Shown here one piece after another: positions 9,617 through 26,288 of a stretch of DNA of 32,240 bases. The DNA comes from Verrucomicrobium sp. BvORR106 (GTDB lineage: Bacteria > Verrucomicrobiota > Verrucomicrobiia > Verrucomicrobiales > Verrucomicrobiaceae), in NCBI RefSeq assembly GCF_000739655.1, contig NZ_BATR01000079.1:1-32240 (forward strand), given 5' to 3'. Below the pieces are notes generated by a model. It saw only the letters and a list, made by a program, of their open reading frames with translations. It was not told where the DNA came from and did no database searches. Every line of letters starts with the position of its first letter. Position 1 is the stretch's first letter. A program made the translations under genes and the position numbers.

Positions 9617-10054
9617 ATGCCCGTACTGGAGAATCCACGTCATGAAGCGTTTGCGCAGGGGCTTGCGTCGGGACTGACGGCGGTGGAGGCCTATAAGCGG
9701 GCGGGGTACCGTGGGGGCGGGGCCAATGCCTGGCGGCTGCATGGGACGGAGGAGGTGCGGGCGCGGGTGAGGGAGTTGCAGGAAATCACCTCGGCACGGG
9801 CGGGGATGAGCCGGGAGGAGGCGGTGGCGATGTGCATCGAGATCCTGAAGGCGCCGCCGAGTGCGGCGCATCTGGAGCACCCGCTGTGTGAGCTGAAGAT
9901 GGGGAAGGACGGGCCCTATGCGATCTTTCCCGACAAACGCGGGGTCATGGAGCGCCTGGCGAAGATGCTGGGCTGGGATGAGCCGGAGAAACACGATGTG
10001 CAGATGACGGGGCCGCGCGGGGTGCTGGCGGGAGTGATGAGGCGTAAAAATTAG
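9617..10054 (+). CDS. Phage terminase small subunit
   Basis: 145 residues from ATG 9617 (in-frame GTG 9608 and TTG 9611 are less likely). The N-terminus NPRHEAFAQGLASGLTAVEA followed by YKRAGY is the DNA-binding helix-turn-helix pattern typical of small terminases (Terminase_2-like). Residues about 60-75 (MSREEAVAMCIEILKAPPSA) resemble the following oligomerisation helices. It recognises phage DNA and guides the large subunit in packaging. The large subunit follows after one small gene. The stop TAG (10052-10054) lies inside the first ttaggaa heptad of a repeat array. No Shine-Dalgarno is present. Confidence 0.85.
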   Translation: MPVLENPRHEAFAQGLASGLTAVEAYKRAGYRGGGANAWRLHGTEEVRARVRELQEITSARAGMSREEAVAMCIEILKAPPSAAHLEHPLCELKMGKDGPYAIFPDKRGVMERLAKMLGWDEPEKHDVQMTGPRGVLAGVMRRKN

Positions 10055-10320
10055 GAATTAGGAATGATGAAGTAGGAATGAATGCAGGGGAACCGCTGAC
10101 AGACGCTCACGGGACGCTGACAATGAGATGTTGAGAGGGATGGGAAACCACTCATTGGCACTCATGGAACACTGATGGGGAAGGTTTAGACAGAATTAAC
10201 AGAATTTACGGAATTAGGGTTTGGCTTTGAATGAAGGACGTGGCTGGGGCCGAATAGGGAGGCGGGCCGTGTTTTTCAGAACCATTGGTGTTTCGTTAGT
10301 GAACATCAGTGGTTTCAGAA
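10051..10320. repeat. Dispersed long repeat, copy A
   Basis: It opens with heptads ttaggaa, ttaggaa, tgatgaa, gtaggaa, then a block with ggggaaccgctgac, ttggcactcatgg, ggaaggtttagacagaatt, gccgaatagggagg and gtttcgttagtgaacatcag. The same order occurs at 12295-12522 (copy B); the second half also occurs at 23650-23832 (copy D) and partly at 16300-16400 (copy C). No gene is seen in this spacer. Confidence 0.8.
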
Positions 10321-10375
10321 GTCCCCCTCTGTGGTTTTCAAGTGCTTGAATTCTGGATTTGAAAGGGAAATTACG

Positions 10376-10630
10376 ATGAAACAACACGATCGATACATGC
10401 AGAAGGCGGACAATGGGCAGGCGTTTCGGGATGCGATCATCGCGGCGGGGGAGGCGGAGCGGGCGAAGAAGCGAAGGTCGGCGGGGAATCCACAACCTGC
10501 GGCCCCGGCGCAGACGGTGCCGGCGGAGCGGCGGACGGCGTTGCTGGGTGGTCCGGCACCGTCGCGATCGAGTGGTGTGGGGCCGGAGAAGAAGAAACAG
10601 CGTGGGTCTGGGTCGCTGTTGATGCCGTGA
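10376..10630 (+). CDS. Small basic phage protein between terminase subunits
   Basis: 84 residues from ATG 10376, with AAAGGG (10362-10367) eight bases upstream as Shine-Dalgarno; the frame extends to 10331 but without support. The N-terminal half is charged and helical (MKQHDRYMQKADNGQAFRDA), with a basic EAERAKKRRS stretch; the rest is Pro/Ala/Gly/Ser-rich and likely disordered. It ends four bases into the upstream in-frame GTG of the large terminase, suggesting coupling. It may assist packaging, but there is no recognisable domain. Confidence 0.6.
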   Translation: MKQHDRYMQKADNGQAFRDAIIAAGEAERAKKRRSAGNPQPAAPAQTVPAERRTALLGGPAPSRSSGVGPEKKKQRGSGSLLMP

Positions 10631-10638
10631 GGGATGTG

Positions 10639-12297
10639 ATGAGTGCGAACATGAACGCCAACGTGAACGGGACTGGGGAGTGGACGGCGGAGGAGCTTCG
10701 GGAGTTCGAGGAGTGCGTCTCCTCGAAGTCCTGGCGCCTGCGGCATCTGTACCAGATCCTGCCGGAGGACGGGGCGGTGATGGTGCCGTTTGAGCTGCGG
10801 CCGGAGCAGGCGCAGTTCATGCTGGCACGGCATACGCGGAACTTCGTGCCGAAGGCGCGCAAGTTGGGGATGTCTACCTTCATCGTGCTGGACTACCTGG
10901 ACACGTGCATCTTCACGCCGAACACGCTGTGCGCGCACATCGACAAGAAGGAGGCGGATGCGAAAGACAAGCTGCACATTGCCCGCATGGCGTGGGAGTC
11001 GGGGCCGCGGCATCCGGACCCGGCGCTGGCGGAGCTGTGGCGCTGGATCCAGGAGGAGAATCCGCTGGTGAAGGACAACGGCGGGTGCCTGGAGTGGGCG
11101 AACGGGAGCAGCCAGAGTGCGGATGTGAGCTTTACCGGCGGGACGCCGCAGCGGCTGCATGTGTCTGAGTACGGGCCGATCGCGGCGCAGAAGCCGGCGA
11201 AGGCGGCGGAGATCAAGAGGGGATCGATCAATGCGGTGCCGGCGACGGGGATCATCGACATCGAGACGACGATGGAGGGCGGGCGGTTTGGCGAGTGTTA
11301 CGCGCTCTTCAAGCTGGCGCTGGAGTCGGTGGGGCAGGATCTGACGGCGCTGGACTGGCGGCTGCACTTCTTCTCCTGGGTGAACCACCCGAGCTATGCG
11401 CTGCCGGGGCGGGTGCCGCTGCGGGCGGAGACGGTGCGGTACTTCGCGGAGCTAAGGGAGACTCACGGTATTGAGGTGCTGCCGGAGCGGCAGGCTTGGT
11501 ACGAGGTAAAACGTCGCGAGCAGGGGGAGGACATGTTCCAGCAGTTCCCCACGGTGGTGGAGGAGTGCGACCGCCATGTGGTCTCTGGCCAGATCTACAC
11601 GGAGATGACGCGCCTGCGGGCGGCGGGGCGGGTGCGGGAGTTCGCGCCGGAGGTGGGGCTGCCGCTGTACACCTTCTGGGACCTGGGCAGCAGCGACAAT
11701 ACGGCGGGCTGGCTGGTGCAGCCGGCGGGGAAGGATGTGAACTGGCTGGACTGGGCGGCGGGGGAAGGCCAGGGCGCGGCGGGCGTGGCGGCGGTGATCC
11801 GCGCTTGGGAGCGGGTGCACGGGCCGGTGGCAGGGCACTACCTGCCGCATGATGCGGTGATCACGGACAAGGGGAGCGGGAAGACGTACCGGCAGCAGTT
11901 GATCGAGGCAGGCATCCCGTCGCAGATGATCCATGTGGTGCCTCGAACCCCGGACGTGTGGGTGGGGATCAATGAGCTGCGCAAGATCCTGCCGCATGCG
12001 TGGTTCCACCGGCGGACGGATGTGGAGCAGCTCAGTGAGACAGGGGCGAAGCTGCCCTCTGGCGTGGGGAGGCTGGAGGGCTATCGGCGGATGCCGCAGA
12101 CGAGCAGCGGGGTGCTGCGGGATGCGCCGATGCATGACCTGTGCTCGCACACGGCGGATGCGGCGCGGACGTTCGCGGAGGCTCGGGCGGCGGGGATGAT
12201 CCGCGGTGGTGGTGGAGGTGGTGCGGTGACGGGCCTGGGCGTGAAGGTGACGGCGGGGTATGGGGGGGCGCGCCGCGGAGCGGCGAATTATAAATGA
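10639..12297 (+). CDS. Phage terminase large subunit
   Basis: 552 residues from ATG 10639 (gaggga just upstream); GTG 10627, which overlaps the preceding stop, is an alternative. ATPase half: a Walker-A-like loop KARKLGMST (72-80), of the deviant type common in large terminases; a Walker B RLHVSEYGP (172-180) with acidic E177; and a coupling-type TTMEGG (210-215). Nuclease half: an RNase-H-like strand FWDLGSSDNT (346-355) with D348, then YLPHD (401-405), and MHDLCSHTADAAR (498-510), supplying the likely metal-binding acids. It powers DNA translocation into the prohead. Its stop TGA is the first three bases of heptad tgatgaa, and repeat copies A and B flank this gene and its small neighbour. 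Confidence 0.9.
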   Translation: MSANMNANVNGTGEWTAEELREFEECVSSKSWRLRHLYQILPEDGAVMVPFELRPEQAQFMLARHTRNFVPKARKLGMSTFIVLDYLDTCIFTPNTLCAHIDKKEADAKDKLHIARMAWESGPRHPDPALAELWRWIQEENPLVKDNGGCLEWANGSSQSADVSFTGGTPQRLHVSEYGPIAAQKPAKAAEIKRGSINAVPATGIIDIETTMEGGRFGECYALFKLALESVGQDLTALDWRLHFFSWVNHPSYALPGRVPLRAETVRYFAELRETHGIEVLPERQAWYEVKRREQGEDMFQQFPTVVEECDRHVVSGQIYTEMTRLRAAGRVREFAPEVGLPLYTFWDLGSSDNTAGWLVQPAGKDVNWLDWAAGEGQGAAGVAAVIRAWERVHGPVAGHYLPHDAVITDKGSGKTYRQQLIEAGIPSQMIHVVPRTPDVWVGINELRKILPHAWFHRRTDVEQLSETGAKLPSGVGRLEGYRRMPQTSSGVLRDAPMHDLCSHTADAARTFAEARAAGMIRGGGGGGAVTGLGVKVTAGYGGARRGAANYK

Positions 12298-12522
12298 TGA
12301 ATTAGGAATTAGGAATGAATGAAGGGGAACCGCTGACGGACGCTAACGGAACGCTGACGATGAGGAATGAGAAATCACTTATTGGCACTGATGGGGAAGG
12401 CTTAGACAGAATTTACGGAATTGGGGTTGGCTTCGAATGACAGATGTGGCCGTGGCCGAATAGGGGGCAAACTGTGTTTCTTGAGAACTGTTAGTGTTTT
12501 GTGAGTGAATATCAGTGGTTTC
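12295..12522. repeat. Dispersed long repeat, copy B
   Basis: It begins with heptads tgatgaa (containing the terminase stop codon), ttaggaa, ttaggaa, tgaatga, and then follows copy A with small deletions. Direct orientation relative to copy A, 2.2 kb apart. Confidence 0.8.
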
Positions 12523-12825
12523 TTTCCGCCGTAATTCTGTCAACTCTGTTTAAAAGGCGTTCCTCTGTGTTCTCTGTGACTCTGTGGTTGGTTGGGGGTG
12601 CGTCGTGGGTTTCGTTGGAAGTCGGGGTGTGGGAGGGGGTGAGGCCGGGTTTCGCACCTGAGGGTGGGAGTTGTTGGTAGTAACCCAGGGCGTTGCCCTG
12701 GGCTGGTATGAGGTCGGGCCCTTGGCCCTGAGCTGCGATGCGGGAGGCAGAAGGCTGGCGCTGGGCGAGGTGGCTCGCGAGGGGATAGGACGAATAGGGA
12801 AGATGGGACTGATGGGGCCTCAGGC
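12523..12825. other. Gene-free spacer with host-type repeats
   Basis: It holds a 33-bp segment (12557-12589, core tcctctgtgttctctgtgac) that recurs almost unchanged at 16483-16516, and the double hairpin at 12684-12728. No gene is visible. Confidence 0.6.
12684..12728. repeat. REP-like double hairpin, copy 1
   Basis: CCCAGGGC-GTT-GCCCTGGG (12684-12702) followed by GGGCC-CTT-GGCCC (12716-12728). Copy 2 is at 17876-17920, with an A-T to T-A swap in the first stem. Confidence 0.75.
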
Positions 12826-12860
12826 ACTTTTGACTTTTCACTCTTAACTTTTCACTGCGT
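12826..12860. repeat. Pyrimidine-rich heptads reaching a start codon
   Basis: Five in-register heptads: acttttg, acttttc, actctta, acttttc, actgcgt. The last overlaps GTG 12859. This is the reverse complement of the agtgaaa heptads found after stops. Confidence 0.75.
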
Positions 12861-13281
12861 GAACGAAGCTATGGTTGTGAACCTGCGCCTGACTCCAGTA
12901 GAACTTGCGGCTCGGGTCTACAAGCTCGAGCCTTGTGCGAGAACGTTTCGGGAGGATCTGGAGGGGCATTTGATCAATGGGTATGTGTTTAATACGCCGG
13001 AGCTTTTTTTGATGGGGCGGGCGGTGGATTCGTCGGCGCCGTATGAGGTGGTGACGGATCCCTGGCAGGTGTTTGCGCGGGAGCGGTGCGATGCGTGGCT
13101 GTGCTACCTGGCGGCGGGGGATCTGACGCGGATGCCGGGGCTGATCCCTTATGAATTGCCGAAAATAGGGTTTGAGCGGGGGAATATCTTGCGTTACTAT
13201 CGGTACGGGAGATTAACGAACAAGATTCTATGCTCGACCACCCTGATACACTCGGCGGCCCGTATTTCGACCGCGACCTGA
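12859..13281 (+). CDS. Small phage protein upstream of portal
   Basis: 140 residues from GTG 12859, or 136 from ATG 12871. It is mixed alpha/beta with clear coding character up to about residue 115 (ELFLMGRAVDSSAPYEVVTDPW; RERCDAWLCYLAAGDL), so it is a credible virion-module gene. The last 17 residues overlap the start of the next gene in another frame and look like out-of-frame sequence, and the DNA just before (13206-13228) resembles the gattaacaagatt repeat. The original stop may therefore have been replaced. By position it may be a head or tail accessory protein, but no family is recognised. Confidence 0.6.
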   Translation: MNEAMVVNLRLTPVELAARVYKLEPCARTFREDLEGHLINGYVFNTPELFLMGRAVDSSAPYEVVTDPWQVFARERCDAWLCYLAAGDLTRMPGLIPYELPKIGFERGNILRYYRYGRLTNKILCSTTLIHSAARISTAT

Positions 13282-13622
13282 TTGGCCCTGATGGGCGCTT
13301 GAACCGCTTTTGCAAAGGCCAGTCGGCTCCGAAGCAGACGGCGACGCAGAAGAAGGCGGAGCTGAAGAACCTGGAGCTGATGGAGAAGATGCTGAACCAG
13401 AAGCCTGAGAAGATGCCGGAGATCAACATCCCGCCTGCTCCGGAGCCGGTGGCGATTCCCCCCGCGCCTTCCCAAAGCAGCGCGGATGTGGAGGACGCGG
13501 ACCAGGAGGCGCGTCGCGCGGCGGGCAAACGCTACGGTCTGCTGCGCACGACGTATGCGGGTGCGACGGGCGGCTATGGCGGGACGAAGCCGCTGGGGGG
13601 AGTGAGGTCGCTGCTTGGATGA
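13230..13622 (+). CDS. Small phage structural or accessory protein
   Basis: 130 residues from ATG 13230, overlapping the previous gene by 52 bases. It has an N-terminal region, a short helical charged stretch (KAELKNLELMEKMLNQKPEKM, about 45-65), a Pro-rich linker, and a Gly-rich C-terminus ending GGVRSLLG. Such a short coil plus a Gly-rich tail is common among podovirus small virion proteins encoded just before the portal (T7 has genes 6.7 and 7.3 there). That parallel is by position and style only. An agtaaaa/agtgaaa heptad array starts on the base after its stop. Confidence 0.6.
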   Translation: MLDHPDTLGGPYFDRDLIGPDGRLNRFCKGQSAPKQTATQKKAELKNLELMEKMLNQKPEKMPEINIPPAPEPVAIPPAPSQSSADVEDADQEARRAAGKRYGLLRTTYAGATGGYGGTKPLGGVRSLLG

Positions 13623-13657
13623 AGTAAAAAGTTGAGAGTGAAAAGTGAAAAGTGGGG
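13623..13657. repeat. agtgaaa-type heptad array after a stop
   Basis: Five heptads in register: agtaaaa, agttgag, agtgaaa, agtgaaa, agtgggg, starting immediately after TGA 13620-13622. Confidence 0.8.
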
Positions 13658-13661
13658 GGGC

Positions 13662-13733
13662 GGTTGAGTTGTGCCGCAAGCGGCACGTTGAGGCGCTACG
13701 CTGGTTTAGGCGGGCTACGCCCTGGTTTAGGGA
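13662..13733. repeat. TTGAG/TTTAG hairpin modules
   Basis: Modules start with ttgag or tttag and carry a short hairpin: GTGCCGC-AA-GCGGCAC (13671-13686), GCG-CTA-CGC, and GGGC-TAC-GCCC. The same modules with other stems occur at 15551-15616, 17474-17580, 20092-20147, 20339-20433, 21907-22058 and 22783-22850, and inverted at 23876-23941. Confidence 0.8.
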
Positions 13734-13854
13734 CTGAGGCGCTGGGTGGTTGGCTGCCTGGTACTTTGCTTGGATGCCTATGAAGATGCGAAAGATGATG
13801 ACCTGGAACCTGTTGGCGCATCGAACCTGACTTGGGTTTGGTTTTGGATGCCCT

Positions 13855-13882
13855 ACTTTTTACTTACTACTTTTCACTCCGA
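13855..13882. repeat. acttttc heptads before the portal gene
   Basis: Heptads acttttt, acttact, acttttc, actccga end eight bases before ATG 13891. They face the agtgaaa array at 13623-13657 as an inverted pair around the spacer. Confidence 0.75.
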
Positions 13883-13890
13883 TCTGCCTC

Positions 13891-15519
13891 ATGCCTTCCT
13901 ACAGCCCCAATGACACCGCCCGCCGCAAAGCTCTCGTCGACCGCATCATGCTGCGATGGCAATCGGCACAGGCGGAGAGGGGGCCTTGGCTGGGGCTGTG
14001 GCAGCAGATGGCGGACTATGTGCGACCGAACCGATCGACGGTGAAGGGGCGGATGGATGCGCCGAGTCTGGCGGGGTTTGAGTCGGTTTTTGATGGGACG
14101 GCGATCTCGGCGAACATGACGCTGGCGTCCGGGTGCATGTCGCGGCTGACGCCGGCGCAGGCGCCTTGGTTTGCGTTTGATCCGCCGCGGGAGCTGCGCC
14201 AGAACGATGCAGCGAAGCGCTGGTACGCGGAGTGCTCGGAGATTGCGCTGGAGGCGCTGGCGACGTCGAACTTTTACACGGAGCTGCATGAGGCGTATCT
14301 GGATCGCGGGGCCTTTGGCACGTGCTGTCTGCATGTGGAGGGGACGCAGAAGCATCCGCTGAACTTCAAGGCGCATGACATCGGGACGTATGCGTTTCTC
14401 AATGGGGCGGACGGCATGGTGGACACGGTGTTCCGCGAGCTGACGTACACGGCGCGGGAGGCGGCGCAGGTGTATGAGGTGAAGGAGCTGCCGGAGTGTC
14501 TGCAGCGGGTGCTGCTGGAGCCGGGCTCCTCCCAACAGGGGGAGCGGCATGACTTCCTGCATGTGATCTACCCGCGGGAGGATGCGGAGCGGGATGCGGC
14601 GAAGATGGACGGGGCGAACAAGCCGGTGGCCTCGGTGCACATCCATGTGAAGACGCGCACGATCGTGCGTGTGGGTGGGTACGAGGAAATGCCGACGATC
14701 GGCTCGCGGTATCTGCGCTGGGGCACGGGGGCGTACGGGATCTGCCCCACGTGGCAGGCGCTGCCGGAGGCGCGCCAGCTCAATGAGCTGCAGAAGAACC
14801 TGGACGTGCTGGCGGAGGTGGCGGCCTTTCCCCGGCTGCTGCTGCCGGATGACATGGAGGGGGAGGTGGATCTGCGGGCGACGGGGACGACTTATTTCAA
14901 AGATCCCAACCGGGTGCCGCGGGAGTGGCTGACGCAGGGCCGGTATGATGTGGGGCTGGATCGCGTGAAGGCGCGGCAGGAGGCGATCAAGTCGGCGTTT
15001 CACGTGGAGCTGTTCCAGATGTGGGCGGCGATCACGAAGCAGATGACGGCGTATGAGGTGGGCGAGCGGGCGCAGGAGAAGGTGGAGCTGTTCTCACCCA
15101 CGTTCACGCTGCTCTCCACGGAGATGTACGGGCCGATTTTGCGGCGGGTGTTTTCCCTGCTCATGCGGCAGGGTGTGTTCCCCATGCCGCCGGAGGAGGC
15201 GGTGTACCAGAATGAGCGGGGCATGTGGGCGGTCTCGGACCCGAAGCTGCGCTACACCTCCCGCCTGGCGCTGGCGCTGAAGGCGGTGAACAACCAGGCG
15301 CTGAATCGGGTGCTGGGCATGATGGGCCCGGTGATGCAGTTCAACCCGGCGGTGGCAGACAACCTGAACTGGGATGTGGCCATGCGCGACATCGCGCTGA
15401 ACGAGGGCGTGCCGGTGGAGTGGATGCCGTCGGAGGATGAGGTTGCTGAAATGCGCCGGGGACGGGCGGAGGCAGCGGCTATGGAGGCCCAGGCGGGGAT
15501 GGGGCAAGTGAAAAGTTAA
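13891..15519 (+). CDS. Phage portal (head-to-tail connector) protein
   Basis: 542 residues, close to T7 gp8 (536). The N-terminal segment RWQSAQAERGPWLGLWQQMADYVRP, then FESVFDGTAISANMTLASG, and the later LQKNLDVLAEVAAFPRLLLPDD and TAYEVGERAQEKVELFSPTF are the conserved style of the T7-type head-tail connector family (PF12236). Twelve copies form the ring at one capsid vertex through which DNA is packaged and ejected. No Shine-Dalgarno; the leader is a pyrimidine-rich heptad array. The last residues VKS and the stop TAA are encoded by agtgaaa/agttaag heptads, so the true C-terminus may have been trimmed or replaced by repeat sequence. Confidence 0.9.
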   Translation: MPSYSPNDTARRKALVDRIMLRWQSAQAERGPWLGLWQQMADYVRPNRSTVKGRMDAPSLAGFESVFDGTAISANMTLASGCMSRLTPAQAPWFAFDPPRELRQNDAAKRWYAECSEIALEALATSNFYTELHEAYLDRGAFGTCCLHVEGTQKHPLNFKAHDIGTYAFLNGADGMVDTVFRELTYTAREAAQVYEVKELPECLQRVLLEPGSSQQGERHDFLHVIYPREDAERDAAKMDGANKPVASVHIHVKTRTIVRVGGYEEMPTIGSRYLRWGTGAYGICPTWQALPEARQLNELQKNLDVLAEVAAFPRLLLPDDMEGEVDLRATGTTYFKDPNRVPREWLTQGRYDVGLDRVKARQEAIKSAFHVELFQMWAAITKQMTAYEVGERAQEKVELFSPTFTLLSTEMYGPILRRVFSLLMRQGVFPMPPEEAVYQNERGMWAVSDPKLRYTSRLALALKAVNNQALNRVLGMMGPVMQFNPAVADNLNWDVAMRDIALNEGVPVEWMPSEDEVAEMRRGRAEAAAMEAQAGMGQVKS

Positions 15520-15541
15520 GAGTGAAAAGTGATAAGTGGGG
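15507..15541. repeat. agtgaaa heptad array containing the portal stop
   Basis: Heptads agtgaaa (15507-15513), agttaag (15514-15520, holding TAA), agtgaaa, agtgata, agtgggg. The array begins inside the coding sequence. Confidence 0.85.
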
Positions 15542-15550
15542 AGGGGGGAA

Positions 15551-15616
15551 GTTGAGATGTGCCGCAAGCGGCACGTTGAGACGCTGCGCTGGTTGAGACG
15601 GCTTCGCCTGGTTGAG
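15551..15616. repeat. TTGAG hairpin modules
   Basis: GTGCCGC-AA-GCGGCAC again, then acgctgcgct, then GGC-TTC-GCC, each preceded by ttgag. Confidence 0.8.
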
Positions 15617-15643
15617 AAACTTCCGGGCGCTGGGCGAAGCTAA

Positions 15644-15679
15644 ACTTTTCACTTTTTCTGACGCTACTTTTCACTTCGC
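15644..15679. repeat. acttttc heptads before a small gene
   Basis: acttttc, acttttt, then (after eight bases) acttttc, acttcgc. Inverted partner of 15507-15541. Confidence 0.65.
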
Positions 15680-15730: not shown

Positions 15731-15967
15731 ATGACCTTTGAAGAAAAGCTATTTGGGAAGCCGGAAGAGGCTCGGCGGTTCCGGGAGGCGGCGCGGGCGG
15801 TGTTTGGGTCTGCGGAGGGGCGGGTGGTGCTGGCGATGTTGTGTCGCGCGGCGCATCCGCTGCAGCATCGGCAGGGCATGACGGAGCATGAGCACGGCCA
15901 GTGCGAGGTGGTGGCGGCGCTGTGGCGGTTTGGGTCGGCGGAGGCGGGGATGAGGACTGCGGAGTGA
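15731..15967 (+). CDS. Small phage protein between portal and scaffold (1)
   Basis: 78 residues from ATG 15731, without Shine-Dalgarno. An N-terminal charged helix (TFEEKLFGKPEEARRFREAARAVFG), a central hydrophobic helix (RVVLAMLCRAAHP) and HRQGMTEHEHGQCEVVAALWRFG. Two Cys and several His are present but not in a metal-site spacing that can be defended. The compact helical character and position in the virion module support a real gene; the function is unknown. Its stop TGA lies in the first ggagtgat octamer of a short array, so the final residues may come from the repeat. Confidence 0.6.
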   Translation: MTFEEKLFGKPEEARRFREAARAVFGSAEGRVVLAMLCRAAHPLQHRQGMTEHEHGQCEVVAALWRFGSAEAGMRTAE

Positions 15968-15984
15968 TGGAGTGATGGAGTGAT
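15961..15984. repeat. Octamer array containing a stop codon
   Basis: Three ggagtgat units; the first supplies TGA 15965-15967. Confidence 0.75.
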
Positions 15985-16021
15985 GAGGGGTGGGGTTTGG
16001 ATTTTGAAGTTTTTCTGAACT

Positions 16022-16270
16022 ATGAAGACGAATCGAGTTGAAGAGGGAGTTTCTGGGGGGCGGAAGAAGAGGGGGAAGGTGGCGGATGAGGTGGAGGTGG
16101 TAGTCGCGACAGAGACAGAGACAGAGGCGGAGACTGGGATTCCGCCGTGTCCGGTGGAGGATCCGCGCTATGGGGACAAGACGGTGGCGGTGGTGGCGTG
16201 GTTCAAGGAGTATCGGCCGGAGGAGTTTGTGAAGCGGTACGCGGGGAGACGTTTTTTAAGACAGGATTAA
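16022..16270 (+). CDS. Small phage protein between portal and scaffold (2)
   Basis: 82 residues from ATG 16022. The first 30 residues are Lys/Arg-rich, followed by an acidic Glu/Thr run (about residues 28-40) and then a conserved-looking C-terminal part DPRYGDKTVAVVAWFKEYRPEEFVKRYAGR. The core likely ends at YAGR: the last residues FLRQD and the stop TAA are encoded by the dispersed tttttaagacaggattaacagg-type repeat. The function is unknown. Confidence 0.55.
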   Translation: MKTNRVEEGVSGGRKKRGKVADEVEVVVATETETEAETGIPPCPVEDPRYGDKTVAVVAWFKEYRPEEFVKRYAGRRFLRQD

Positions 16271-16520
16271 CAGGATTTTTAAAAGATTAACAGGATGGGG
16301 ACAGGAACCACTTATGGGCACTGATGGAACACTGATGGGGAAGGTTTAGACAGAATTAACGGAATTAGGGTTTCTGAAACACTAATGGTTCTGAAGAAGC
16401 AGGATTTGGGATCTGAGTTCCGGTCGCGTCTGTCATTAGAAGCTCAATCCAATTCTGTTAATTTTGTTAATTCTGTCTAAAGGGCGTTCCTCTGTGTTCT
16501 CTGTGACTCTGTGGTTTTAT
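16259..16520. repeat. Dispersed long repeat, copy C, with a ctctgtg segment
   Basis: It starts as gacaggattaac and gattaacagg units, then the ttatgggcactgatgg block and ggaaggtttagacagaatt as in copies A, B and D, but it lacks the later part. The 33-bp ctctgtg segment (16483-16516) matches 12557-12589. No gene lies in this spacer (16271-16573). Confidence 0.75.
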
Positions 16521-16541
16521 CGGGATTGGCTTTAGCGCATA

Positions 16542-16576
16542 ACACTTAACTCTTAACGTTTAACTTATAACTCATG
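16542..16576. repeat. Heptad array ending in the scaffold start codon
   Basis: Five exact-register heptads: acactta, actctta, acgttta, acttata, actcatg. The ATG of the scaffold gene is the last three bases of the fifth heptad. Confidence 0.8.
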
Positions 16577-17479
16577 ATGATGACGATGATGCTGATGGAA
16601 GAGGTGACGGATGTGGCGGGTGGCGAGGGTGGGGCTGGTGGTGGTGTGGGGACTGCGGCTGCGGCTGAGGCTGGTGGTGGGTTTGATTTTCGGGCGCTGG
16701 CGAATGAGCGGGGGGAGTTTGTGGAGGGGTGGCAGGACCGATTGCCGGCGCAGTTTGATGCGTCGCGGGCGACGCTGGCGAACTATCGATCTTTCGACAA
16801 GCTGGCGGAGGCGTTCATGGAGAACAAGCGGGCGGCAATGACGCGCACGGAGGGCATGATCCGCCTGCCGGGGAAGGAGGCGAAGCCGGAGGAGATCTCG
16901 GAGTTTCACAAGGCGCTGGGGGTGCCAGGCAAGCCGGAGGAATATGGGCTGAAGCAGCCGGAGAATCTGCCGCCGGGCACGGAGTGGAATCCGGAGTTCG
17001 CGGATGCCTTTGCGGGGGCGGCGCACAAGCTGGGCCTGACGAAGGCGCAGGTGGAGGGGCTCTCTGCCTGGCATCTGCAGGAGACGGTGGGCCGCATGCA
17101 GAATGTGGAGGTGGAGGGGCAGCGCCTGTTTGAGCAGGAGCAGTCGGAGTTGCGCCGGATCTTTGGCGGGGACTATGACAAGCGCATGGTGGATGCGCGG
17201 CGAGCGGCGATGACGCTGGGGCTGCCGGATGATCATCCGGTGTTCTACCGGGCGGACTCGATCAAGGCGATGGCGCGCCTGGCGGATCTGATCAGCGAGG
17301 ACCGGCTGATCTCGCCGACGCAGGTGCAGAACAAGTTATCCCCTGAAACCGCGGCGCGGGATGTGATGACGAATCCGGATCACCCGGACTACAAGGCGTA
17401 CTATGATCCCGCACACGGGCGGCATCGGGAGGTGGTGGCATGGGTGAATGGGCAGATGAAACGCGCCTACGGCGGTTGA
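16574..17479 (+). CDS. Phage capsid scaffolding protein
   Basis: 301 residues, close to T7 gp9 (307). The start codon is the first of a run of ATGs; residues 1-35 are Met-, Gly- and Ala-rich and probably disordered. After that: DFRALANERGEFVEGWQDRL, an anchor helix (FDKLAEAFMENKRAAM), and the segment EEISEFHKALGVPGKPEEYG typical of scaffold proteins of many tailed phages, followed by long helices (VEGQRLFEQEQSELRRIFG). It guides prohead assembly and is lost before maturation. The capsid gene should follow directly but is displaced by 3.4 kb. The stop TGA is supplied by the first ttgag hairpin module. Confidence 0.85.
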   Translation: MMMTMMLMEEVTDVAGGEGGAGGGVGTAAAAEAGGGFDFRALANERGEFVEGWQDRLPAQFDASRATLANYRSFDKLAEAFMENKRAAMTRTEGMIRLPGKEAKPEEISEFHKALGVPGKPEEYGLKQPENLPPGTEWNPEFADAFAGAAHKLGLTKAQVEGLSAWHLQETVGRMQNVEVEGQRLFEQEQSELRRIFGGDYDKRMVDARRAAMTLGLPDDHPVFYRADSIKAMARLADLISEDRLISPTQVQNKLSPETAARDVMTNPDHPDYKAYYDPAHGRHREVVAWVNGQMKRAYGG

Positions 17480-19253: not shown

Positions 19254-20084
19254 ATGAGCACGAATCGATTCGCGACTTCTTCTGCGCCAGAGCCTGGGCG
19301 AGGTGTTCTGCAGCGGTGGCTGAGTTCTTTGGGGCTGTTGATCCTGGGTGTGGGGGTGGGTTATGGCATCTCTGTGCTGGTGCGTGAGGGGAGGGCGGAG
19401 GTGGCGAAGGCGGATGTGAGCCGGGTGGAGGCCAAAGGTCGCGCGAAGGTGAAGGCGGGGGCGGGGACGGCAGCGGAGGATGAGGTGACGCCGAAAGAAG
19501 GGGAGGGGAAGGCGGCGGTGCGATCGCCGTTTTTTCACCCGGAGGTGATCGCGAAGTCGCCGCAGGTGTGGCTGCCGCGGGAGGTGGTGAAACTCTACTC
19601 CTGGAGCCTGGGGGACTATGGCGAGCACTTTGACGTGACGGACCAGGCGAAGAAGGTGCTGCGGCTGAGCAAGGAGGAGGCGGTCGGGTTAAAGGAAACG
19701 CTGGACCGGCATCTGCAGGCGCTGCGTGGACTGGAGCGCAGCAAGGTGCAGATCCTTTCGCAAACGGATGAGAAGGTGGAGCTGAGGCTGCCGGGGGATG
19801 TGGGCGGGGAGTTTGCGCCGGCGCGGGAAGCTCTGCGTGGAGAGGTGCGGGAGATGCTGGGCGAGGCGCGGGGGGAGTTGTTTCTGCATGCCCTGAATGA
19901 GGAGCTGGCGTTGCGCTCGCCGGTGTACAGCGGTCAGGAGTGGCGGATCGACGTGCAGCTCAAGGAGGGGGAGATGATGGAGGTCTCGATCCAGAAGCCG
20001 GCGGGAAGTTCGGGGTATCAGGGGAATGCGATTCCGGCGGGGTTGAGGCATTTGGTTGGAGTTTTGGAGGATGGGAGTTTGTGA
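19254..20084 (+). CDS. Membrane-anchored hypothetical protein, paralog 2 (insert in virion module)
   Basis: 276 residues from ATG 19254. Anchor at residues 23-43 (LSSLGLLILGVGVGYGISVLV), a Lys/Glu/Ala linker to about 90, then a folded domain. It aligns in layout with the preceding protein: helices EEAVGLKETLDRHLQALRGL, a strand VELRLPGDV, helices ALRGEVREMLGEARGELFLHAL, and final strands EWRIDVQLKEGEMMEVSI. The pair thus arose by duplication and probably acts together at the inner membrane with the domain outside. Function unknown. A GGCCGC-AA-GCGGCC hairpin and TTGAG modules start ten bases after the stop. Confidence 0.75.
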   Translation: MSTNRFATSSAPEPGRGVLQRWLSSLGLLILGVGVGYGISVLVREGRAEVAKADVSRVEAKGRAKVKAGAGTAAEDEVTPKEGEGKAAVRSPFFHPEVIAKSPQVWLPREVVKLYSWSLGDYGEHFDVTDQAKKVLRLSKEEAVGLKETLDRHLQALRGLERSKVQILSQTDEKVELRLPGDVGGEFAPAREALRGEVREMLGEARGELFLHALNEELALRSPVYSGQEWRIDVQLKEGEMMEVSIQKPAGSSGYQGNAIPAGLRHLVGVLEDGSL

Positions 20085-20091
20085 GCGGTTA

Positions 20092-20147
20092 GGGGCCGCA
20101 AGCGGCCTGTTGAGACGCGTTGCTGGTTGAGACGGGCTTCGCCCTGT
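20092..20147. repeat. TTGAG hairpin modules
   Basis: GGCCGC-AA-GCGGCC (20094-20107), ttgagacgcgttgctgg, and GGGC-TTC-GCCC. Confidence 0.8.
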
Positions 20148-20204
20148 AATTGGGGAGGTGGGGGTGGGATCCAGTGCGTCAGTGCGCCAGAGGGAGGGGG
20201 TGTG

Positions 20205-20335
20205 GGGTGTGCCATGCAATGGGCCTACCGCTCCGCGGTAGCGTGGTGGGGTGGTTGTCCACGGGTAGCCCTCGTTAAACTCGGTCGACCCGTGGCTATT
20301 CATGGTGAACCCTCCGGGTTCGGGGAGACGGCTGC
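20205..20335. repeat. Three-hairpin structured repeat, copy 2
   Basis: H1 CTACCGC-TCC-GCGGTAG (20225-20241). H2 CCACGGGT (20259-20266) with ACCCGTGG (20288-20295) around inner GTTAAAC (20274-20280). H3 GAACCC-TCC-GGGTTC (20307-20321). Relative to copy 1, H2 has changed G-C to C-G and T-A to G-C, and the inner stem C-G to T-A and T-G to T-A, all preserving pairing. Confidence 0.85.
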
Positions 20336-20338
20336 GCC

Positions 20339-20433
20339 TGGTTGAGACGGGTTGCTGATTGAGATGGTGCCGCCGGGGCGGCGCCTGGTTGAGGCGCTGC
20401 GCTGGTTTAGGCGGGCTTCGCCCTGGTTTAGGG
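20339..20433. repeat. TTGAG/TTTAG hairpin modules
   Basis: They include GGTGCCGCC/GGCGGCGCC with one G-T pair, gcgctgcgctgg, and GGGC-TTC-GCCC, each framed by ttgag or tttag. Confidence 0.8.
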
Positions 20434-20481
20434 GAGGTGGGTGCGGTGGAGGTTGATTGGTTAGGAGGTGGTGATGGATGA

Positions 20482-21870: not shown

Positions 21871-21906
21871 GGGTGGCTTGGACGGTGCGTGAGATGGAGG
21901 GGGTGG

Positions 21907-22058
21907 GGTTGAGACGCTGCGCTGGTTGAGATGTGCCGCAAGCGGCACGTTTAGGCGCTGCGCTGGTTGAGGCGCTTCGCTGGGGTGGTTGGTCTACACA
22001 GGCGGAGACTCGGGTTTGGGTCTCCGCTGGTTTAGGCGGGCTACGCCCTGGTTTAGGA
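21907..22058. repeat. Hairpin modules after the capsid gene
   Basis: ttgagacgctgcgctgg; GTGCCGC-AA-GCGGCAC; tttaggcgctgcgctgg; ttgaggcgcttcgctgg; then gcggagac...gtctccgc (GCGGAGAC at 22002-22009 pairs with GTCTCCGC at 22019-22026); then GGGC-TAC-GCCC. Confidence 0.75.
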
Positions 22059-22138
22059 AATGCGGGCGCTGGGCTTTTGGAGTTTTGGGTCGCGGGGCGG
22101 CTCAGGTCTGGGGTCTGGCGTCTCTGACTGGCTCCCTT

Positions 22139-22231: not shown

Positions 22232-22714
22232 ATGCCAACTACTTATAAATCTGCTGAGGCTGCGGCGCAGGACTCCCGGGCGGTGTCCCGTGAATCCCAT
22301 CCCAATGCCCGGCTCTTGCAACAGACGGTGCGTTTTGCGAAGTTCAACATCACGCTGTCTGCGGTGCTGCTGGCCAATGACATCCTGAAGCTGGGCTCGC
22401 TCCAGATGGACGGGGCGGTGGTGATCCCGGAGCTGTCGCGTCTGACCCGCGTGACGGCGGGGGGCGGTACGGCAATCAATACGGCGTTCAAGCTGCAGAG
22501 CGTGCTGGGCACGGCCGCTGCGGTGGATGAGAGCGCCAGTGCGACGCTGAACACGGGCACCTCTGCCACGATCGTCCTGGCCCGCACGACCGCGGCCGTC
22601 AACACGGTGCTGACGCCGGACTCTGCGCTGCAGCTGCTCATCGGGACGGTGACGGCGGCGGGGAATGCGGGGGACGTGGTTGCTGTGGAGGTGGCGTATC
22701 GGGCGGTGAGTTAG
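22232..22714 (+). CDS. Probable minor head or decoration protein
   Basis: 160 residues from ATG 22232, with an A-rich leader (caaaataacgaaatacc) and no Shine-Dalgarno. After a short N-terminal helix it is rich in Ala, Thr, Val and Leu with alternating strands (ATIVLARTTAAVNTVLTPDSALQLLIGTV; VVAVEVAYRAVS), resembling small beta-rich head or fibre proteins that many podoviruses encode between capsid and tail genes. No family signature can be named. Alternatives are a capsid decoration protein or a head fibre. Heptads and hairpin modules follow. Confidence 0.55.
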   Translation: MPTTYKSAEAAAQDSRAVSRESHPNARLLQQTVRFAKFNITLSAVLLANDILKLGSLQMDGAVVIPELSRLTRVTAGGGTAINTAFKLQSVLGTAAAVDESASATLNTGTSATIVLARTTAAVNTVLTPDSALQLLIGTVTAAGNAGDVVAVEVAYRAVS

Positions 22715-22742: not shown

Positions 22743-22777
22743 AGTGAAAAGTAAAAAGTGGTAAGTGAAAAGTGGGG
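22743..22777. repeat. agtgaaa heptad array
   Basis: agtgaaa, agtaaaa, agtggta, agtgaaa, agtgggg, 28 bases after the stop. Inverted partner at 22954-22981. Confidence 0.8.
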
Positions 22778-22782
22778 CTGCC

Positions 22783-22850
22783 GGTTGAGACGGCGCAAGC
22801 GCCTGGTTTAGGCGCTCCGCTGGTTTAGGCGGGCTACGCCCTGGTTTAGG
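22783..22850. repeat. TTGAG/TTTAG hairpin modules
   Basis: GGCGC-AA-GCGCC, gcgctccgctgg and GGGC-TAC-GCCC, framed by ttgag and tttag. Confidence 0.8.
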
Positions 22851-22953
22851 TCCTGAGGGTGCCTTGGCCGGAGTTCACTTCTCTCCCTGTCCCGCTGCAT
22901 CTTTGTAGTTCTAGGAAATGCATGAGGTGCCGTCGCGGTGCTCAGTATTTTTC

Positions 22954-22981
22954 ACTTTTTACTCTCAACTTTTCACTGCGC
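22954..22981. repeat. acttttc heptad array
   Basis: acttttt, actctca, acttttc, actgcgc in register, 40 bases before ATG 23022. Confidence 0.75.
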
Positions 22982-23021
22982 TGCGGTCCCACCCCACCCC
23001 TGACCTCCAAATAAAACCCCC

Positions 23022-23612
23022 ATGACCTCCACAGAAATCTGTAACAAAGCGCTGGCGCATCTGGGTGATGCGCGGATCTCGGACTTTCACGAGGTGTCGG
23101 TGGCGGCGGAGAAGTGCCGCACGCACTATGACCATGAGCGGGACAGTCTGTTGCGGCTGCACCGGTGGAACTTTGCGCGGGCGCGTACGCTGCTGACGAG
23201 GCTGGTGCAGAAGCCGGCGTTTGGCTGGGCTTTTCAGTATGCGATGCCGGCGGACTGCCTGCGGGTGCTGGAGTTCAACGGGGTGGAGTCGGGCGTGGAT
23301 CACGATGATCACTATGAGCTGGAGGGCGGTCGCCTGCTGACGGATGCGGGTGAGGGCTGGCTGGTGTACACGAAGCGGGTGACGGATGCGTCTCTGTATG
23401 ATGTGCTCTTCTGCGATGCCCTGGCGTACAAGCTGGCGGCGGCGCTGTGCAAGGAAATTACCAACTCGAACAGCGAGAAGGGGGCGCTGCTGCAGATGTT
23501 CGAGCGCAGCCTGCGCGATGCGGGCTGGACGGATGCGGTGGAGAACCGGGCGCGGGTGGTGCCGCCGACACGCGGATCGCGGACACTCAGCGCGAGGGCG
23601 GGGGCTTTTTAG
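23022..23612 (+). CDS. Tail tubular protein A (T7 gp11-like)
   Basis: 196 residues, the same length as T7 gp11. The N-terminus ICNKALAHLGDARISDF, then AAEKCRTHYDHERDSLLRLH and RWNFARARTLL, are the hallmark of the podovirus tail tubular A / gatekeeper family. It forms the adaptor ring beneath the portal. ATG 23022 has no Shine-Dalgarno; the nonamer tgacctcca occurs both upstream (23001-23009) and just inside the gene (23023-23031). The stop TAG (23610-23612) coincides with the first bases of the dispersed repeat copy D. Confidence 0.9.
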   Translation: MTSTEICNKALAHLGDARISDFHEVSVAAEKCRTHYDHERDSLLRLHRWNFARARTLLTRLVQKPAFGWAFQYAMPADCLRVLEFNGVESGVDHDDHYELEGGRLLTDAGEGWLVYTKRVTDASLYDVLFCDALAYKLAAALCKEITNSNSEKGALLQMFERSLRDAGWTDAVENRARVVPPTRGSRTLSARAGAF

Positions 23613-23832
23613 GACAGGATTAACAGGATTTTTAAGGATTAACAGGATGGGAACAGGAACCACTTATGGGCACTGATGGAACACTGATGGGGAAGGTTTA
23701 GACAGAATTAACAGAATTAACGGAATTGGGTTTGGCTTCGAATGACGGACGTGGTTGGGACCGAATAGGGAGGCAAGCCGTGTTTGTTCAGTACTATTAG
23801 TGTTTCGTTAGTGAACATCAGTGGTTTCTCTC
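23611..23832. repeat. Dispersed long repeat, copy D
   Basis: It opens like copy C (gacaggattaac units, ttatgggcactgatgg) and continues like copy A (cagaattaacggaatt, gaccgaatagggaggc, ttagtgtttcgttagtg). It is thus the most complete member. The rest of the spacer carries inverted hairpin modules (23876-23941). Confidence 0.8.
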
Positions 23833-23875
23833 AGCCCTGATCCTGCGGGCTTCTTCCCGGTGAGAAGCTGTATTG

Positions 23876-23941
23876 CCTAAACCAGCGAAGCGTCTCAACC
23901 AGCAACGCGTCTCAACGTGCCGCTTGCGGCACATCTCAACT
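23876..23941. repeat. Hairpin modules in inverted orientation
   Basis: ctaaaccagcgaagcgtctc, accagcaacgcgtctcaac and GTGCCGC-TT-GCGGCAC are the reverse complements of the modules found elsewhere; the array ends about 40 bases before the tail tubular B start. Confidence 0.75.
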
Positions 23942-23978
23942 TCATCACCGGAGCCCAGGGCTTCCATTTTAACACAGC

Positions 23979-26288
23979 ATGCCACGCCGCCTGATCGCTG
24001 CCTTTAACGCGGGAGAGATTTCTCCGCTGCTCGATGCCCGGATGGACATTGAGAAGTACCAGAATGCGGCGCGGATCATGGAGAACTGTGTGCCGAAGAT
24101 CTATGGTGGGGCGTTTGGCCGGGCGGGGATGGAGTGGATGGGGGCAGTGAAGGATCACGGGCGGAAGGTGCGGCTCATTGAGTTCATCTTTTCTGCGACG
24201 ACGAATTTTGTGCTGGAGTTTGGGCACTTGTATGTGCGGTTCTGGAGCAACGGGGTGCAGATCCCCACGCCGGGGAATCCGGCGGTGCCGCTGGAGATCG
24301 CCTCGCCCTATACGGAGGAGGATCTTTTCAGCATCCAGTATGCGCAGGCGAATGACGTGATGTACCTGGTGGACGGGCATCAGCCGGCGCAGAAGCTGAC
24401 GCGCCTGGCGGATGACTCCTGGACGCTGACGACGGTGCCGTGGAAGTACCCGGCGCTGCTGGTGGAGAATGTGACGGCGACGACGCTGGCCTGCTCTGCG
24501 ACGACGGGCACGGGGCTGACGCTGACGGCGTCCACGGCTTTGTTCAATGCGGGGCATGTGGGGGGTTATTTCCAGATAGCCCACCGGCGCAGCGGGGCCT
24601 TCACGGAGCTGGCGCTGACGGCGACGGCGACGGGCAGTGAGATCCGCATCCTGGGGAAGTATGATGTGTTCACCTACGGCACGTGGAACGGCACGCTGAA
24701 TCTGGAGCGCAAGAATGAGCTGGGCGTGTGGGAGGTGGTGCGCACGTGGTCGAGCAAGAATGACCGCAACGTGCAGGTCTCTGGCGAGCAACTGGACGAG
24801 GCGGCGCTGCGGTTTAACTACACGGAGACGGCGGCGGAGGGCAGCAGCCCGCCGCGGGCGGTGCTGGAGGCGGCGGACTCCCGCATCTATGGCCTGGTGA
24901 AGGTGACGGGCTACACGAGTGCCACGCAGGTGACGGTGGATGTGATCCAGACGTTGCACGCGACCACGGCGGTGACGACCTGGACGGAGGGGGCGTGGAG
25001 CGACTACCAGGGGCACCCGCGCACGGTGGCGATTCATGAGCAGCGGGTGATCTTTGCCGGGACGGACAAGCAGCCGCTGACGATCTGGGGATCCCTGCTG
25101 GGGGACTTTGAGAACTTCCGCCGCTCGACGCTGGCGGATGGGGCCTTTGCCCATGTGCTGGGCTCCAGCCGGGGGAACTCGATCGTGTGGCTGGCATCCA
25201 TGAGCGAGCTGCTGGTGGGTACGCAGGGGGATGAGTGGGTGGTTCGAGGAAGCGATGAGTTCCCCATCTCGGCCACGACGGTGAGCATCAAGCGGCAGTC
25301 TGGCTACGGCTCGGCGTACATCGGGGCGCTCATCTGCAATGACGCGGTCATGTTTGTGCAGCGGGGAAGGTTGCGGTTGCGGGAGTTTGTGTACCAGTTT
25401 GAGCGGGATGGCTACACGGCGCCGGACCTGACGCTGCTGGCGGAGCACATCACGGCGGGCGGGGTGGTGCAGATGGCCTTTGCCACGAACCCGGATCCGG
25501 TGGTGTGGGTGGTGACGGGCACGGGGCAGTTGCTTTCCATGACGTTTGAGCGGGACCAGTCGGTGGTGGGTTGGTCACGGCATCTGACAGATGGCCAGGT
25601 GGAATCGGTGGCGGTGATCTACAGCGCGCCGGGGCTGGCGGATGAGATCTGGGTGGCGGTGCGCCGGCACATTGTGGATGCCTCTGGCGTGGCGCAGACG
25701 CGCCGGTACATTGAGCGGCTGGACCCGGCGAAGTGGGCGAAGATCGACTCCGGCGACATCGCGCACATGATCTATGTGGATGCGGCGAAGGTGATCACCC
25801 TGGAGCCCGCGGCCAGTGTGGTGACGGGGCTGGAGCATCTGGAGCGGCGGAACGTGACGGTGCTGGCAGACGGGCGGGTGCACCCCGTGCGCACGGTGAA
25901 TGACGGGGCCCTCTACCTAGAGCGGCCGGCCAGCACGGTGGTGGTGGGCCTGCCCTATACGGTGCGCCTGCAACCGACGAAGACGGATGTGCCCCTGCCG
26001 GATGGCACGGCCCAGGGCCGGAAGTGGAAGACGAACAAGGCGACGGTGCGCCTGCACAAGACGCTGGGTGGCGAGTATGCGGATGCGCCGGACCGGGAGT
26101 TCTATGAAATGATCAACCGCACGGTTGACACGCCGCTGAATACGCAACAGCCCCTGTACTCGGGCGATCGCGAGCTGCTCATGAAGAGCACGCACCGCGG
26201 CGGGCTGGACATCACGCTGCGCCAGCGCCTGCCGTTGCCGTTTCATGTGCTGGCGGTGGTGCCGGAGTTTGATGTTTCTGGTGCTTAG
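23979..26288 (+). CDS. Tail tubular protein B (T7 gp12-like nozzle)
   Basis: 769 residues (T7 gp12 has 794). The N-terminus RRLIAAFNAGEISPLLDARMD followed by KYQNAARIMENCVPKIYGGAFGRAGMEW is the signature opening of podovirus tail tubular B / stabilisation proteins; NAGEISPLL in particular is highly conserved. The body is strand-rich as expected for a beta-propeller nozzle. It forms the end of the short tail. ATG 23979 lacks Shine-Dalgarno. The final residues Gly-Ala and the stop TAG are encoded by the first gtgctta heptad of an array that continues downstream. Codons are strongly G-ending. Confidence 0.9.
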   Translation: MPRRLIAAFNAGEISPLLDARMDIEKYQNAARIMENCVPKIYGGAFGRAGMEWMGAVKDHGRKVRLIEFIFSATTNFVLEFGHLYVRFWSNGVQIPTPGNPAVPLEIASPYTEEDLFSIQYAQANDVMYLVDGHQPAQKLTRLADDSWTLTTVPWKYPALLVENVTATTLACSATTGTGLTLTASTALFNAGHVGGYFQIAHRRSGAFTELALTATATGSEIRILGKYDVFTYGTWNGTLNLERKNELGVWEVVRTWSSKNDRNVQVSGEQLDEAALRFNYTETAAEGSSPPRAVLEAADSRIYGLVKVTGYTSATQVTVDVIQTLHATTAVTTWTEGAWSDYQGHPRTVAIHEQRVIFAGTDKQPLTIWGSLLGDFENFRRSTLADGAFAHVLGSSRGNSIVWLASMSELLVGTQGDEWVVRGSDEFPISATTVSIKRQSGYGSAYIGALICNDAVMFVQRGRLRLREFVYQFERDGYTAPDLTLLAEHITAGGVVQMAFATNPDPVVWVVTGTGQLLSMTFERDQSVVGWSRHLTDGQVESVAVIYSAPGLADEIWVAVRRHIVDASGVAQTRRYIERLDPAKWAKIDSGDIAHMIYVDAAKVITLEPAASVVTGLEHLERRNVTVLADGRVHPVRTVNDGALYLERPASTVVVGLPYTVRLQPTKTDVPLPDGTAQGRKWKTNKATVRLHKTLGGEYADAPDREFYEMINRTVDTPLNTQQPLYSGDRELLMKSTHRGGLDITLRQRLPLPFHVLAVVPEFDVSGA

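Follow-up and report, generated by a model that had tools for sequence, protein, structure and literature searches.

Why do so many virion genes of one prophage end within short tandem repeats? The question is posed by a contig of Verrucomicrobium sp. BvORR106 (NZ_BATR01000079.1, here C131), the whole of which, 32,240 nt of the forward strand, constitutes the window analyzed; the genome comprises 8.69 Mb. Most of 9.6 to 26.3 kb is a prophage-type block encoding, by PHROG matches, small and large terminases, a portal (head-tail adaptor), a major head protein, and two tail proteins. A sequence-only reading of this DNA had placed the stops of its virion genes in or beside repeat units, and had proposed that the repeats either invade at or just before stops and trim C termini or spread from a stop-adjacent seed. 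Checked gene by gene, eight virion-gene stops indeed lie in or against repeat units. Among 27 open reading frame (ORF) ends examined in the window, the stop falls within a unit in seven cases; five more (the 130-amino acid (aa) ORF, the tail tubular A gene, and the ORFs ending at 2384, 3616, and 9380) have an array called by Tandem Repeats Finder (TRF) within 20 nt, and 15, absent from that first list, have neither.

We found that strand polarity is a deeper rule than stop position: at stop and start edges alike, one strand of each repeat family is directed away from the gene and into the gap. On balance we think it probable, if only modestly so, that the repeats belong, as arms, to a class of intergenic border repeats spread through the genome and common to host and prophage, which would act as two-way hairpins at 3′ ends and whose arms would arise by slippage and exchange.

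Host and prophage carry the same repeat families

Pieces of the phage gaps matched dozens of sites in the BvORR106 genome itself, in Verrucomicrobium sp. BvORR034 (G065), and in G067, a genome of the same genus in one contig of 8,220,857 bases, which we take to be V. spinosum. Repeats specific to the phage were ruled out, as the BvORR106 genome and G067 carry the same families throughout. In 1.21 Mb of the BvORR106 genome (about 14%), noncoding arrays of period 7 numbered 104, against 1.3 expected from second-order Markov sequence, and those of period 8 numbered 43 against 1.7; in 400 kb of G067 the counts were 21 against 0.7 and 12 against 0.3. Genes were called with our own gene caller, and arrays lying at least 90% within a called gene, or lacking a called gene on both sides, were excluded from counts. 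The contigs of this main sample were a non-random choice, many of them, like some stretches of G067, taken for their matches to phage gaps, and the array densities (0 to 7.75 per 10 kb across 16 sampled contigs, highest in the window contig) are not genome averages. A TRF count (37 arrays within −60 to +20 of a stop versus 16.2 expected) and a strict detector were replaced by the final detector, which gave the counts above and below.

In 12 families, one strand runs from gene to gap

At stops, the purine-rich strand of the arrays was sense in 55 cases and antisense in six in the BvORR106 genome, and sense in 19 and antisense in three in G067; at starts it was antisense rather than sense, by 19:2 and 5:1, respectively. 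The bias held beyond stops at 7 to 20 nt (16:3) and at 21 to 50 nt (13:4), and it is therefore not a product of stop-catching alone. Once the arrays were sorted into 12 families with one strand named for each, the family strand pointed inward in every edge array of these families (83:0). Families and strands had been named after inspection of the data; they were then frozen and tested on 780 kb of unused DNA, where the polarity was 27:1. Three of the 20 hold-out loci from the BvORR106 genome (L219–L221) lie on contigs matched in earlier searches, and most of the remaining ones extend contigs already in the sample; without the three loci the hold-out polarity was 22:0, although dropping them also takes out the sole polarity exception and the sole pair in a divergent gap. 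On viral contigs, GAATTAG arrays over stops were 15:0 in polarity, versus 7.1:7.1 by the re-insertion null described below, and AAGTGAA arrays at stop edges within 20 nt were 4:0 when distinct arrays were counted, the AAGTGAA viral tally of 9:5 being inflated by one array on L176 that was counted four times.

On mRNA this polarity reads as purine after the stop and pyrimidine before the start, which would suit elements acting on translation, by tuning ribosome release, mimicking a Shine-Dalgarno sequence, or binding S1. Translational regulation has been proposed for TAACTGA repeats upstream of starts (MacGregor 2015, available part of PMC4679880), and ribosome stalling has been reported for repetitive extragenic palindromic (REP) sequences located up to 15 nt from a stop (PMC12306157, in its available part, citing earlier work). 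However, the polarity is also found in families that are not strongly purine-rich, such as GAATTAG, and among inner arrays (51 inward, 21 outward); nor would such elements predict the same-family inverted pairs described next. We regard a translational role of this kind as very unlikely.

Arrays of one family face each other across a gap

Neighboring arrays separated by under 250 nt within a gap formed 50 pairs, 26 of the same family, and all 26 (20 in the BvORR106 genome, six in G067) were inverted and facing in. The same was true of all seven same-family pairs of the hold-out, or 4/4 without the loci from earlier matches (the pairs in L219 and L220 had been found with an inverted search pattern). 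The arms of one gap agreed in family, with a mean score of 13.8 versus 8.4 after permutation in the BvORR106 genome (0/1000 permutations) and 13.1 versus 6.9 in G067 (1/1000). By gap, the 26 main-sample pairs were distributed as 18 tandem, eight convergent, and no divergent, and gaps holding arrays at all were commoner among convergent (30/129) than divergent ones (11/139; Fisher p = 6e-4). Folded as arm-core-arm and compared with Markov shuffles, the pairs gave a mean z of −2.62, with 18/26 below −2. Spread from a stop-adjacent seed, as the sequence-only reading had suggested, is not supported, since the inward polarity extends to start edges and the arrays occur as inverted same-family pairs. 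A row of co-directional genes at C183:35477-39068 has octad arrays in four successive gaps in both the BvORR106 genome and G067; three of these gaps were aligned, and they fold into long stems.

In the border reading, each arm is a short array of 7- or 8-nt units set against a coding end, its fixed strand running from gene to gap, and two same-family arms often face each other across a core, such that DNA or RNA through the gap could fold into a long stem. The fold probably acts on RNA, most likely as a two-way 3′-end hairpin that would terminate transcription or protect transcript ends, given that the arms are inverted, that they lie against stops, and that divergent gaps seldom hold pairs. 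Termination by Rho on the pyrimidine strand is a possibility, since the genome encodes Rho (two PF07497 matches); YC pairs recur at 6 to 7 nt, counted without a control set. As for intrinsic terminators, which would need a U run after the hairpin, the longest T run in the 3′ arm plus 12 nt was at least five at 16/52 arm ends, likewise without a control set.

Inverted arms, intergenic location, and several families are also what might be expected of mobile elements resembling miniature inverted-repeat transposable elements (MITEs) or REP doublets forming hairpins (REPINs) that insert at gene ends, the heptad arrays being their terminal arms. A MITE holding a minisatellite has been described in Porphyromonas gingivalis (available part of PMC4596501), and presence or absence between sister species at C118:9798 and after the scaffold gene fits this picture as well. 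The cores speak against it: 17 of 18 matched pairs have one, of 25 to 123 nt, and none of the 17 gave another match at E 1e-3 in the 1.21 Mb, in a search limited by the shortness of the cores. Inspection by eye of gaps aligned with the sister, where no systematic search was made, revealed no target duplication. A transposing element with a shared core is thus unsupported, and we hold mobile elements to be distinctly unlikely; slippage and exchange would be likelier sources of the arms than transposition of a single element.

Arms turn over between relatives, and protein tails differ more often where arrays cover stops

Between sister species, arms turn over in copy number, in unit variants, and even in family, sometimes on both sides of a gap. 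A sister of the prophage is present in BvORR034 (contigs L042 and L068; 96% identity for the portal and 97% for tail tubular B), and 79 orthologous gaps were compared with this sister (32 with arrays) and 29 with G067 (10 with arrays); the switches below are individual cases. After the 130-aa ORF, the AAGTGAA-type heptads of the window are replaced at the same place in the sister by an AAGGGAA-type array, and the right arm before the portal is switched likewise, with the left part of the core kept. The left arm has also switched after the small terminase, where the sister has a GGGAAGA-type array, and after tail tubular B, where it has GGGATAA-type heptads. In the convergent gap C118:9798-9893, the BvORR106 genome has a GAATTAG pair; the sister has in its place, as judged by eye, an inverted CACAGAGG-type pair around another core, and its left arm begins directly past the stop. 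This sister pair was missed by the detector. At C170:41120, G067 has GAATTAG where the left arm here is of CACAGAG type, and both keep the right arm; elsewhere family and arms are both conserved, for example in the C183 octad gaps.

A more radical reading is a dedicated process that writes and rewrites arrays at coding borders: it would recognize the edge of a gap, deposit any of a dozen interchangeable 7- or 8-nt units always in the same strand orientation, be able to swap the family on both sides with part of the core preserved, act on host genes and resident phages alike, and alter protein tails as a by-product. We give it little credence.

Where an arm extends into the end of a gene, the last few codons come from the arm. 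Altered C termini do accompany arrays at or just before stops in the small terminase, the large terminase, the portal, and the 78-aa protein, whose tails differ from those of the sister near the start of the array. C-terminal trimming as a general rule was ruled out. Of the 11 phage genes compared, six (130-aa ORF, scaffold, capsid, 160-aa ORF, tail tubular A, and tail tubular B) have unchanged final residues and no more than single substitutions close by; in the 82-aa protein the differences are substitutions only. Tail tubular B is full length, aligning to residue 767–769 of 769 in homologs of six other genomes, and profile matches reach within three residues of the end in the portal, capsid, and tail tubular B. 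Across 78 orthologous 3′ ends (one of 79 was skipped), tails were changed, in that fewer than half of the last eight residues agreed, in 10/17 cases where an array covers the stop in at least one of the two species versus 7/61 without one (Fisher p = 1.5e-4). Ends that tolerate change may, however, be those that tolerate arrays, so that cause and effect are not separated by this comparison. In a chromosomal case (C170:8502-8648, compared with L119), an AAGGGAA-type array encodes residues near the end of the protein (GKGSRDEGEGVKS), and the sister protein ends differently.

Position relative to stops and points against the border reading

That stops lie inside units is largely to be expected: any 7- or 8-nt unit containing a stop triplet presents it in every frame after a few copies. 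In the border reading, the position of the arms against the coding end is a second reason. In the 1.21 Mb of the BvORR106 genome, a 7- or 8-nt array overlapped 34 of 973 called stops (5/26 in the window contig). Arrays at −60 to +13 of a stop numbered 57/155, versus 32.8 at random positions in the same gaps (maximum 48 in 300 draws), and 18/40 in G067, versus 10.0 (maximum 17), a null that is blind to the capacity of arrays to end any frame that enters them. We therefore removed each array, put it back at random within its gap ± 30 nt and in random orientation, and called the genes again (12 draws for the 155 arrays of the BvORR106 genome, 20 for the 40 of G067). This re-insertion null places 17.4 of the 155 arrays inside genes (observed, two), so that its remaining classes come out roughly a tenth too low. 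Against it, the BvORR106 genome showed 35 stop overlaps versus 18.3 and 26 arrays at 1 to 20 nt from a stop versus 12.8; for sense-oriented arrays the figures were 33 versus 11.1 and 22 versus 7.0. At starts, 18 arrays faced inward versus 6.9 and two outward versus 8.2. In G067, stop overlap was not clearly enriched (7 versus 4.8), and arrays 1 to 20 nt beyond stops were (15 versus 3.6), above all inward ones within that distance (14 versus 1.6). The claim that arrays end exactly at coding ends did not survive these tests: the excess in the BvORR106 genome is about twofold over roughly −14 to +13, with no spike at position 0.

Several observations weigh against the border reading. Among 32 GAATTAG arrays of unrelated viral contigs (the sister contig left out), 15 overlapped a stop versus 14.2 by random re-insertion, and stop overlap on viral contigs is thus chance plus stop-catching. 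Start edges within 20 nt on these contigs were mixed in polarity (GAATTAG 5:3, AAGTGAA 1:3). The purine bias is lost at 51 to 100 nt beyond stops (5:8), arrays not sorted into families are less strict (17:3 inward), and one family, TTGAAGT, breaks the polarity (3:4 in the main sample, 0:2 in the hold-out). Pairing alone does not explain the inward strand, since an outward pair would fold as well, and many arms lack a detected partner, two or more arrays being present in 42 of the 109 array-bearing gaps of the BvORR106 genome. One of the seven hold-out pairs lies in a divergent gap. GAATTAG arms are as alike across gaps as within one (0.703 versus 0.706; 431/1000), which argues against tight base-pair selection or recent arm-to-arm copying, and direct copying of one arm onto the other is unsupported within this family. 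Cores are no richer in hairpins than array-free convergent gaps (mean z −0.63 versus −0.79); they were accordingly rejected as hairpin terminators, though single cores look terminator-like by eye (for example, C114:73741-73863). One arm can switch alone (tail tubular B and C170:41120), and in the window contig taken by itself tails were changed in 4/7 cases with an array versus 2/6 without.

The chance-level overlap on viral contigs favors an explanation that dispenses with function, in which selfish simple repeats arise or insert wherever gaps and last codons tolerate them and, with units that are not multiples of three, end any frame. Protein tails do tolerate change, and MacGregor argues likewise for TAACTGA in the available part of PMC4679880. 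Left unexplained by selfish repeats and stop-catching alone are the polarity (15:0 on viral contigs, and the 83:0 and 27:1 of the genomes), the inward orientation at starts, and the inverted same-family pairs. The positional excess in the BvORR106 genome survives the modeling of stop-catching, and for 37 of 64 arrays near stops, neither strand closes all three frames. We consider this explanation rather unlikely, and the border reading remains the one that we favor.

Repeats of the window, gene by gene

The names scaffold and tail tubular used here were given by the sequence-only reading; the scaffold protein matches an uncharacterized protein family and gives a weak match to a protease family. 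GAATTAG-family heptads at 10049–10081 (+ strand) lie over the stop of the small terminase gene (9617–10054), the TAG at 10052–10054 falling inside AATTAGGAATTAGG, and a second such array at 12286–12316 (+) lies over that of the large terminase gene (10627–12297), the TGA at 12295–12297 being the start of TGATGAATTAGGAATTAGG. AAGTGAA-family heptads are found just upstream of a 140-aa ORF at 12825–12856, with the family strand on minus and polarity into the gap. This ORF (12859–13281), which has no PHROG match at E 0.01, overlaps the 130-aa ORF (13230–13622) by 52 nt. The next gap contains a left arm of AAGTGAA-family heptads that adjoins the stop of the 130-aa ORF (13622–13654, +) and an inverted right arm of the same family at 13853–13878 (−) before the portal start (13891). 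Two arrays had been said to begin on the base after a stop: by TRF, the array at 13622–13654 does touch the stop ending at 13622, whereas TGGGCAG heptads at 3619–3641 (+) begin two bases past the stop of the ORF at 2864–3616 rather than at 3617.

The portal gene (13891–15519) ends in a further left arm of AAGTGAA-family heptads (15506–15538, +), with the TAA at 15517–15519 inside AAGTTAAGAGTGAA and the residues VKS encoded by the array. The corresponding right arm, at 15643–15676 (−) before the 78-aa ORF, is degenerate and inverted, its coordinates and family assigned by eye; its equivalent in the sister was detected as an array. The 78-aa ORF (15731–15967) has its TGA (15965–15967) inside GGAGTGAT, in octads of this unit at 15961–15985 (+), and in the sister an extra GAATTAG array stands in front and holds the stop. 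The TAA (16268–16270) of the 82-aa ORF (16022–16270) falls inside GACAGGATTAAC, within a GACAGGATTAACAGGAT block at 16261–16297 (+) that is not a 7- or 8-nt array. Degenerate TAACTCT heptads (16540–16573, −) directly precede the scaffold start (16574). The scaffold gene (16574–17479) ends in 17-nt GGTTGAGACGCTACGCT modules at 17474–17534 (+), its TGA (17477–17479) lying inside the first GTTGAGAC module; the sister has none at this place and the same last residues.

Toward the right end of the block, a left arm of AAGTGAA-family heptads begins 28 nt past the stop of the 160-aa ORF (22232–22714; arm at 22743–22775, +) and faces an inverted arm of this family at 22948–22978 (−) upstream of tail tubular A, which was assigned coordinates and family by eye and has a detected equivalent in the sister. 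The stop of tail tubular A (23022–23612), TAG at 23610–23612, immediately precedes a GACAGGATTAAC block (23613–23650, +) and is outside the unit. That of tail tubular B (23979–26288), TAG at 26286–26288, is inside GTGCTTAG, in GTGCTTA heptads at 26281–26349 (+), and here the C terminus is the same in the sister despite the switched family. AAGTGAA-like heptads, the family again by eye, occupy 26393–26426 directly before the next ORF (26427), with the family strand on minus.

Other repeat types accompany these arrays. Four virion genes are followed by a composite block of about 140 to 240 nt (10082–10316, 12317–12522, 16262–16400, and 23613–23828); the four share pieces such as CACTGATGGGGAAGG and GACAGAATTAACAGAATT, and three of them contain TTAGTGTTTCGTTAGTGAACATCAGTGGTTTC-type sequence. 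Modular GGTTGAG/GGTTTAG arrays joined to small interchangeable hairpins (GGGCTTCGCCC, GTGCCGCAAGCGGCAC), delimited partly by eye, occur at 13655–13713, 15543–15601, 17474–17560, 20077–20450, 21905–22060, and 22774–22850. In the non-phage part of the contig, very long octad arrays with 21 to 23 copies of the GGAGTGGT/GGAGTGAT type lie at 238–405 and 6393–6575. An Rfam scan of the window returned nothing that reached the gathering score.

Relation to known repeats

The closest counterparts are the G-rich intergenic heptads GGGAATC of Xanthomonas and GGGGA(C/T)T of Nostoc. According to the available part of PMC4692102 (Rehm et al. 2015), the Xanthomonas heptads lie near or over stops on the sense strand and near starts on the antisense strand, and pair up in inverted, convergent fashion (two Xanthomonas have 70 and 75 such cases; Nostoc has few); the G-rich heptads are commoner between convergent than divergent ORFs and vary in length among relatives; and in Xanthomonas (Xac) RNA-seq data, transcripts started or stopped oftener at quadruplex-forming heptads than at control repeats. 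Noncoding enrichment of 7-nt tandem units, sense at stops and antisense at starts, and inverted convergent pairs are all seen here. Stop proximity, polarity, and inverted pairs are thus already published for Xanthomonas. In the available part of that work each genome has one G-rich family, read as a G-quadruplex motif, whereas here 12 families, most without a G-tract, obey one polarity, and one family can give way to another at the same site between sister species. By inspection, the units GAATTAG, AAGTGAA, GTGCTTA, GGTAAGT, and GGAGTGAT have no G-tract of three; AAGGGAA and GGGCAGT have one.

The short tandemly repeated repetitive (STRR) sequences of heterocystous cyanobacteria are heptanucleotide repeats. 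Like the long ones (LTRR), they are short tandem intergenic repeats, for which the accessible portions of the literature yielded no description of a stop or polarity rule. TAACTGA repeats of Beggiatoaceae, cyanobacteria, and Bacteroidetes resemble the present arrays as heptads over stops, 13 sets lying over the stop of the upstream gene, which was explained by three-frame stops (MacGregor 2015); they differ, in the available part of PMC4679880, in being mostly oriented to the downstream start, in forming a single-sequence family, and in showing one inverted repeat only. REP, bacterial interspersed mosaic element (BIME), and REPIN sequences are palindromic and intergenic, a share lies right after stops, and effects on translation are reported (available part of PMC12306157); the arms described here are instead tandem arrays, with cores that have no second copy in the sample. 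A literature search, with most subscription papers out of reach, returned none on these repeats in Verrucomicrobia. The additions made here are that many families share one polarity across a genome and its phage and that a family can be switched in place, neither of which was found in the literature searched.

Short tandem repeats between bacterial genes are easily dismissed as neutral or studied family by family. A near-absolute strand rule across a dozen units, together with mirrored arms and switching in place, is a strong constraint on any explanation of them, and arrays over stops provide a simple route by which C termini diverge between close relatives.

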